Source: Polymyxa betae | Lineage: Eukaryota > Endomyxa > Phytomyxea > Plasmodiophorida > Plasmodiophoridae | Direction: 5' to 3' | DNA length: 64,000 nt | Assembly: GCA_003693705.1 (NCBI GenBank) | Contig: RBZT01000441.1 | Coordinates: 1-64,000 of the forward strand | Shown here: positions 35,349-37,394 of the stretch, piece after piece | How positions within the stretch are numbered: the first letter of the stretch is position 1 | Layout of the letters: each line of letters starts with the position of its first letter | Notes under the pieces: generated by a model | What the model was told of the DNA's origin: nothing | The model's database searches: none | What the model saw: the letters and a program-made list of their open reading frames with translations, nothing else | Program-made: the position numbers and the translations under genes

Positions 35349-37394
35349 TCAGTAACGTCGCTGGCCAAGAGGAGCAGCGTTGGCTCCAGTGAAGCCTCCA
35401 CCACCGCCGCCACCACGACGGTTACCACCGCCTCCGTAACCACGGCGGCCGCCTCCGCCTCCGCCTCCCATACCACCTCGAGTGTAATCATAGAGCTGCG
35501 CGGGGATCTCAGCTCCAGCGTCTTTCAGAATCTTGATCAGGTCGTTGGCTTTTCGGGCATCATCAGGAGTGAAGAACGAGTATGATATACCAGAGCGACC
35601 AGCACGTCCGGTACGTCCAATACGGTGAACGTAATCTTCAATGCCGTTCGGCATATCATAGTTAATGACCACAGTGATGTCTTTGACGTCGAGACCACGA
35701 GAAGCGACATCGGTAGCGACCATGATGGCAGCATCACCGGTTTTGAATTGACGCAGAACCCAGTCACGTTCTTGTTGTGATTTGTCACCGTGAAGAGCCA
35801 GAGCAGGCCATCCATCTTGCCGAAGATTAGCGGTCAGCTGATCAGCGGATCGCTTGGTGGTTGTGAAGATCAACGTCTTGCCCGAGTTCTGGTTCTGGCT
35901 GACAATCTCATACAGCTTGCGACGACGGTCATCGGGCTCGCAGCAAATGATGTTTTGTGTGATCTAAACAAAATTCAGTATACCACGCAAATCAGAGTAG
36001 AGAGCGAATCGAAACAGTCCGAAAAATGGAAAGATGCCAATCCGAGCTGCTTTTGAAGACATTGAACGCGACTCACGGCACCACAAACTCACTTGGGTTG
36101 AAGGCGGGTTCCCATATAAAGATCGCAGGCAGATACATTTGGCGCTCGCGTGCTGACTAACTAATCAACGTATGGAGTTCGAAACATATCGGCGCGATGC
36201 GATGCACGGGCCCAACCAACAACAAGGCGAGCGAGCAGTGCCGCGGCGTCCACCACGTCTCTCCAGCGGCTCCGGCGGCCATGAAAAAACGGGTCCAGCA
36301 CGGCGGGTAGTAACTGCCAACCTTATCGTTGACAGCAAGGTCCTCGCTACCGATCGTGACCTGAATCGGGTCCTTGGTGAACGCCGACGAGATCGATTGC
36401 ACCTCCTTCGGCCAGGTGGCGCTCCAAAGCAGCGTCTGACGATCGGGACGGATCTGTGAGATGATCTGTCGCATCTGTTTCTCGAAACCCATATCCAACA
36501 TTCGATCAGCTTCATCCAGAACCAGGTAGGTTACACGACGGAGATTGGTCTTGCCCGATTCCAGGAAATCGATCAGACGACCAGGAGTGGCGATCACGAT
36601 CTCGACACCGCTCTCGAGGTCGCGAGCCTGAGCGCCCTTTGGAGCACCACCATACACACAGGTGTTCTTGATTCGCGATGAATGACCGAACTTGTTGCAT
36701 TCTTGTTGGGTCTGCATGGCCAGCTCTCGGGTTGGGCAGAGGACCAGTACGATGGGACCGTCACCACGGTTCAGAAGAGGCTGAGCGTTGATATGGACAA
36801 TGGCTGGAAGGATGAAGGCCAGCGTCTTGCCGGAGCCGGTTTTCGCGATCCCGACCACATCCCGACCAGATAAGGCCATTGGCCAGCCCTGGGCCTGGAT
36901 CGGGGTTGGCGACGTGAAATTCGCCTTTTTCACTTCGTCCAGAATGTAGTCTGGGAAGCCAGCCTCGTCAAAGGATTTGACGGGGCGCGGCACTTCGCGT
37001 CCAATGACGTTCATGGAGTGTTGGCGACGGTAATCGGCGACTTCCGGTTCGGTCAGGCGAGTGATGTTACCGTGCTCCACGTAAAAGTTCTTCTTGAACT
37101 CGATGAGGTCGTAGCGAGACCAATCAACATTCCTCAGGTTCTGACCAAGCGATGACATATCTAAACATGCAATTGAGATTATTAAAAATAAAAACATTAT
37201 TCGAGCTTACGATCGCCACCGCCACCACCATAGCCTCCAGAACGGCTGTTGTTTCCATAGCCACCGCCGCCACTGCCGCCGCCGCCATAGCTTCCATCGC
37301 GACTTCCATAGCTATCCCTGCTGTAATAATCGCGGTCTGAGCGGCGATCGTGCCGGCTGTATCGATCGTCATAGCGACTGTCTCCACCGTACAT
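35349..37394 (-). CDS. DBP2: DEAD-box RNA helicase DBP2/DDX5 (p68) family
   Basis: ATP-dependent RNA helicase of ribosome biogenesis, splicing and mRNP remodelling. Three exons: 37394-37211, 37160-36322 and 35963-35349. Exon 1 encodes an Arg/Gly/Ser/Tyr-rich tail. The core shows the Q-motif ([16 protein letters not shown]), motif I AKTGSGKT, Ia [10 protein letters not shown] and [26 protein letters not shown], then after the long intron [25 protein letters not shown] and [12 protein letters not shown]. The C-terminus is RGG/Gly-rich. The conserved pre-core block [17 protein letters not shown] marks the DBP2/p68 subgroup. Intron 1 is 50 nt; intron 2 is 358 nt. Confidence 0.96.
35964..36321 (-). 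promoter_or_regulatory. Unusually long DBP2 intron 2, candidate autoregulatory intron
   Basis: 358 nt, donor GTTGGC after ...EDLAVNDK and acceptor TTTAG before [10 protein letters not shown], about seven times the usual intron here. It lies between the two helicase lobes. Retention reads into extra codons with an early stop. Yeast DBP2 has a long conserved intron near this point that mediates autoregulation; whether this one does is inference. Confidence 0.7.

Follow-up and report, generated by a model that had tools for sequence, protein, structure and literature searches.

The window analysed here, a stretch of Polymyxa betae DNA 64,000 nt long, carries on its minus strand a DBP2/DDX5 orthologue, DBP2-A, which runs from an ATG at 37394 to a stop at 35349. 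Exon 1 (37211..37394) encodes a glycine/arginine-rich N terminus from the ATG onward, and a 50-nt phase 1 intron (intron 1, 37161..37210, GTAAGC...TTTAG), of typical length for this genome, separates it from exon 2 (36322..37160), which encodes helicase lobe 1, holds a PF00270 match at 36394-36906 in a domain profile search and ends ...SEDLAVNDK. There follows a 358-nt GT-AG intron in phase 0 (intron 2, 35964..36321, GTTGGC...TTTTGTTTAG), after which exon 3 (35349..35963) opens with ITQNIICC at 35963 and encodes lobe 2 and a glycine-rich C terminus ending GQRRY-stop. The spliced product has 545 amino acids, and its K341/I342 junction, between the helicase lobes, aligns without a gap with yeast Dbp2 (PDB 8ark) and human DDX17. 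Bit scores in the PDB comparison were 643 for Dbp2 (8ark), 582 for DDX17 and 427 for the next entry, DDX42, and identity to the 120 homologues listed was 58-66%. Judged by its sequence, DBP2-A is a DEAD-box helicase of the DBP2/DDX5 subfamily with a full core comprising both RecA lobes. The first-pass annotation had placed a 358-nt intron in a DBP2/DDX5 homologue at 35964-36321, between the two RecA lobes and after EDLAVNDK, and the gene structure and the alignments bear out both its existence and its place. Just upstream of the DBP2-A ATG, a weak method based on codon statistics gave a candidate intron of 80 nt within the 5' UTR (37397-37476, minus strand).

Intron 2 has a GC content of 0.53, rising to 0.57-0.68 in 60-nt windows over its first 150 nt, while six other long introns of the same genome lie at 0.21-0.37. 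The window as a whole varies from 0.40 to 0.54 per 2 kb, and genome GC is given as 45.1% for Polymyxa betae, 45.7% for Spongospora and 58.5% for P. brassicae (PMC6328671), the window being closer to the first two. Reading through intron 2 in frame leads after 54 codons to a first stop (36157..36159), and the codon-use score of the read-through, -17.3 against a 5-95% range of 4.7 to 20.9 in real exon windows, rules out coding; the antisense frame, at +3.4, also falls below the real exons' 5% point (4.7). Since donors elsewhere in the genome differ widely (GTATGC, GTCGCT, GTCTCC, GTAACG and others), GTTGGC gives no evidence of a weak site and is not clearly weak. A mobile or repeated element was rejected as an explanation, the intron sequence having a single match in the genome search and inverted repeats being absent at 35900-36400. 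No tRNA was found, and a plasmid search returned no match. A scan of viral contigs yielded 26 loci, which were left unused because at 27-43% identity they are too distant for a comparison of intron sites.

How exceptional is a length of 358 nt? The genome searched comprises 24,426,232 bases on 541 contigs, and we estimated introns from abutting profile pieces in DEAD, TCP1, kinase, HSP70 and myosin head searches; the sample covers many, not all, contigs with at least two pieces, picked by hand, and its kinase part comes from among the matches listed. The 89 estimates from these five protein families have a median of 52 nt, and 63 of them fall at 41-67 nt, which upholds the typical size of 46-58 nt claimed earlier; P. 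brassicae introns are described as averaging 60 bp (PMC4471660). Lengths of at least 100 nt were reached by 20/89 and of at least 250 nt by 5/89, one of these being 365 nt, although some long estimates could conceal two introns or a protein insert; GT-AG solutions are present for the estimates of 365, 295, 277, 252 and 211 nt and absent for that of 309 nt. A further 40 pairs, three of them at 250 nt or more, were set aside because their profile pieces failed to abut to within 9 positions. In a DDX47-like gene, one intron (locus L057 on contig C345, about 1071-1420, minus strand) measures 348 nt and has one genome match. From the 5/89 and the DDX47-like intron it follows that intron 2 ranks among the longest few per cent of introns in the genome and is not unique, so the first-pass picture of a sole survivor of intron shrinkage fails; because other genes have equally long introns, length alone is no mark of specialness. 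Finding introns de novo by codon statistics proved too weak, and a self-trained gene model degenerated to more than 2,500 'introns'; both were set aside as evidence.

The position of intron 2 does not support the proposed equivalence with the yeast autoregulatory intron. In the alignment it falls between yeast Dbp2 residues 331 and 332, whereas the S. cerevisiae DBP2 intron, which we take to lie after codon 424, is about 90 codons downstream, and on this ground the claim of a common position fails. The DDX47-like 348-nt intron, for its part, lies near the place where the yeast DBP2 intron presumably sits. The genome also contains a second DBP2-type gene, DBP2-B (C390:70300-75300, locus L048), with 71% identity over lobe 1 and 54% over lobe 2; it reads straight across the K341/I342 site and has an intron of its own, of 53 nt, 13 codons upstream of that site.

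Relatives were sought with exon 2 alone, and the best 120 of 7998 scored matches were listed under a length filter of 0.55-1.75 times exon 2, which favours truncated open reading frames (ORFs). Of the 120 listed, all 34 matches without a second helicase domain were used for breakpoints, the remaining 86 being outside the intron count. The closest, P0241 and P0242, are 93% identical to exon 2, and P0243, on a 52,971-nt contig, is 89% identical. All three run through ...DL[AT]VNDK, continue with other residues, the first of them V, which fits a phase 0 GT donor, and then end. P0241 and P0242 are identical over their overlap and probably represent one species, and the identities of all three ORFs suggest that they come from phytomyxids. 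Altogether 11/34 ORFs break at the intron 2 boundary (P0241, P0242, P0243, P0247, P0251, P0253, P0254, P0259, P0267, P0286 and P0310), six by script and five by eye; these five (P0247, P0259, P0267, P0286 and P0310) had script breaks 1-18 residues later and were reassigned from the V that follows the boundary. The boundary thus appears to be shared by eight more distant ORFs. A different break, at query codon 396 (GWPAL), was found by script in 14/34 and becomes 16 with P0266 and P0333 added by eye; this looks like a fungal-type pattern, unlike the intron 2 site. The remaining 7/34 break elsewhere, P0263 three codons downstream of the intron 2 site.

The read-through tails of P0242 and P0243 comprise 31 and 39 codons and match exon 3 no better than shuffles in any frame; the introns at this boundary would therefore be at least 96 nt (P0242) and at least 120 nt (P0243) long, provided that the ORFs end at stops. 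Bearing on whether they end at stops or at contig ends, P0241 and P0242 end alike on contigs of different length, and the P0243 contig is long. The intron position is shared at the exact codon boundary in the two closest relative lineages found (P0241/P0242 and P0243), and an intron of about 50 nt or none, which the first-pass annotation would have counted against itself, was not seen in either; on the same proviso the lengths exceed the typical size, and as read-through values they are lower bounds. Conserved intronic sequence, which had also been anticipated, was not detected: against the intron 2 read-through, 19/200 and 16/200 shuffles scored as high as the tails of P0242 and P0243, so that this comparison does not demonstrate conservation. 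In P0242 the sequences of exons 1 and 2 are continuous; if intron 1 exists in that species, this hints at a transcript from which intron 1 had been spliced out while intron 2 remained. P0243 seems to be without intron 1. Neither the full-protein nor the exon 2 search had a named P. brassicae DBP2 among the 120 matches listed, and its gene model may be absent, fragmented or without a name. The genome's HSP70, which is intronless, is 86% identical to that of Plasmodiophora brassicae, the highest named among the 120 matches listed, and 93% identical to a JGI protein; by this measure the genome is plasmodiophorid-like. One match, P0001 (773 amino acids, labelled Phthorimaea operculella), contains two stretches resembling the DBP2 helicase within a single chain.

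Folded alone, intron 2 reaches -123.9 kcal/mol (z -1.95, 4/100 shuffles as stable; z -1.59 and 8/100 in a repeat shuffling), and six other long introns span z -2.34 to +1.62, one of them (211 nt) lying lower than intron 2. Its best 190-nt window, at -79.8, goes beyond the best window of 60/60 shuffles (mean -63.7, sd 5.1). Here a rod-like RNA hairpin of 186 nt is predicted (36066..36251, minus strand) with 65 pairs (12 G-U), no multiloop and a mean pair probability of 0.87, and the prediction is kept when exon flanks are added. On a coarse 100-nt grid the hairpin window headed the ranking of 1276 windows over the two strands, a flattering rank since the grid was set on that window itself. A finer scan on an independent grid, which scored 10,960 windows (at steps of 20 within the window and of 80 within the loci) with a composition regression, put it 12th among distinct loci in 264 kb and second within the 64 kb of the window. 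Hairpins with a folding bias no smaller thus occur at 12 loci over these 264 kb, or one in roughly every 22 kb, mostly on both strands; that of intron 2 belongs to a group of 6 loci with a strong signal confined to a single strand, and its bias lies on the transcribed strand. By a rough reckoning, coincidence would place such a hairpin in one intron of this length in 1-2% of cases, and it was one among several features tested. Strand-specific folding outliers of similar strength lie at two more places in the window, 50462-50651 (plus strand) and 51822-52011 (minus strand), and a short telomere-like repeat run of TTTAGGG type occurs in a candidate intron at about 52268-52291 (plus strand). A closing stem joining the donor and the branch region was dropped because it disappears once 150 nt of exon are added on each side; it was as low in 2/60 shuffles, with positions chosen after viewing the fold, and no such effect was found in the six other long introns.

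Of the first-pass view as a whole, the intron itself and the typical intron size stand, and the sole outsized intron and the yeast position do not. Because intron 2 is long at a site common to its closest known relatives, it may help to control the amount of DBP2. The reading we prefer, with a rough probability of 0.45, is that of a retention-prone regulatory intron, kept long in phytomyxids at an old DBP2 position and limiting productive DBP2-A mRNA. Intron 2 would then be a normal spliceosomal intron whose incomplete removal restricts productive message, and its length would be maintained for that effect. Unspliced transcripts would have to be made in meaningful amounts; encoding only lobe 1 and 54 further residues, they would be non-productive, and the DBP2 helicase might feed back on splicing, with the intron 2 hairpin as its possible target. 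In favour of this reading are the place and phase common to P0241/P0242 and P0243 and the in-frame stop; against it, the intron sequence is not detectably conserved and the paralogue DBP2-B does without an intron at the site.

Almost as likely is a passive history, in which an ancestral intron was never lost, drifted in length and is constitutively spliced with no regulatory role. The breaks in eight distant ORFs, assigned partly by eye, are what an old intron predicts; long introns form a normal tail of the length distribution, to which the DDX47-like intron also belongs; and the undetected sequence conservation fits as well. Less easily accommodated by drift are the above-median lengths in both relative lineages examined, themselves lower bounds from read-through, and the combination of a GC content well above that of the six other long introns with an outlying predicted hairpin. 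That hairpin is central to a third proposal, by which intron 2 would be the host of a functional RNA, the 186-nt hairpin being processed, for instance as a microRNA-like precursor, and accounting for the intron's length. Its rank on the grid set on it, its place as 12th locus in 264 kb and its confinement to one strand argue in this direction. The genome contains four Piwi-domain genes on C166, C167 and C383, with open frames of 837-845 amino acids, of which two converge on C383; RNase III domain matches likewise number four, and three of these exceed the family cut-off. As an analogue, a microRNA reportedly lies in a conserved intron of DDX5, going by the title of Moore et al. 2011. For P. 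brassicae and S. subterranea, Argonautes are described together with a protein that bears a pair of RNase III domains (PMC4471660). Nevertheless, Rfam gave no match at gathering score in the 64-kb window and none over 35900-36400 with the E value relaxed to 10, snoRNAs included; conserved sequence was undetected; and equally biased hairpins are frequent, most of them on both strands. The earlier suggestion of an intronic RNA such as a snoRNA thus keeps moderate support as regards a structured RNA, through the strand-specific predicted hairpin, and gains none from Rfam as regards a snoRNA; as an explanation of intron 2 we consider a processed RNA unlikely. Far less probable is an assembly error or mis-set boundary that would make the extra bases coding or an insertion: the donor is not textbook and the 5' part is as GC-rich as exons, but the spliced exons align gap-free with Dbp2 and DDX17, the break in the relatives falls on the same boundary, and the read-through combines a stop with non-coding codon use.

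Returning to the retention-prone intron, a bolder version, which we consider unlikely, would have phytomyxid DBP2 control itself through such an intron at an old site other than that of yeast, with the sense-strand hairpin unwound by the helicase or cut into small RNAs. If intron 2 does regulate DBP2, intron-based control of this helicase would extend to Rhizaria at another site than in yeast, implying that DBP2 self-control evolved repeatedly or is much older, and the gene would lend itself to testing why certain introns stay long in a genome of short introns. Among the literature matches listed, no study is devoted by title to DBP2 in plasmodiophorids.

In S. pombe, dbp2 intron 2 is described as poorly spliced, with intron 1 spliced efficiently, and as lowering dbp2 mRNA; S. 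cerevisiae and higher eukaryotes are stated to share its position and length, and retention of the S. cerevisiae DBP2 intron is relieved by a helicase-dead mutant (PMC4695336); Dbp2 is likewise reported to inhibit splicing of its own intron (PMC5393171). DBP2-A resembles these genes in being orthologous, in having a long intron between exons that code for the helicase core, and in that retention would truncate the protein. It differs from S. cerevisiae DBP2 in the site of the intron (aligned 331/332, against a position presumed to follow codon 424), and its retention and feedback are putative. Vertebrate DDX5 and DDX17 have retained introns, and DBP2-A, which belongs to the same subfamily, has in common with them a suspected regulatory role of an intron and a possible hairpin RNA. 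DDX5 is also named in the work on S. pombe dbp2 (PMC4695336). Trypanosoma brucei DBP2B, another DBP2-type gene that keeps an intron, is counted as one of two (PMC11888146) or of three (PMC12592628) cis-spliced genes. There it is a rare exception, whereas many of the genes sampled here have introns, so that intron 2 of DBP2-A is not a lone survivor.
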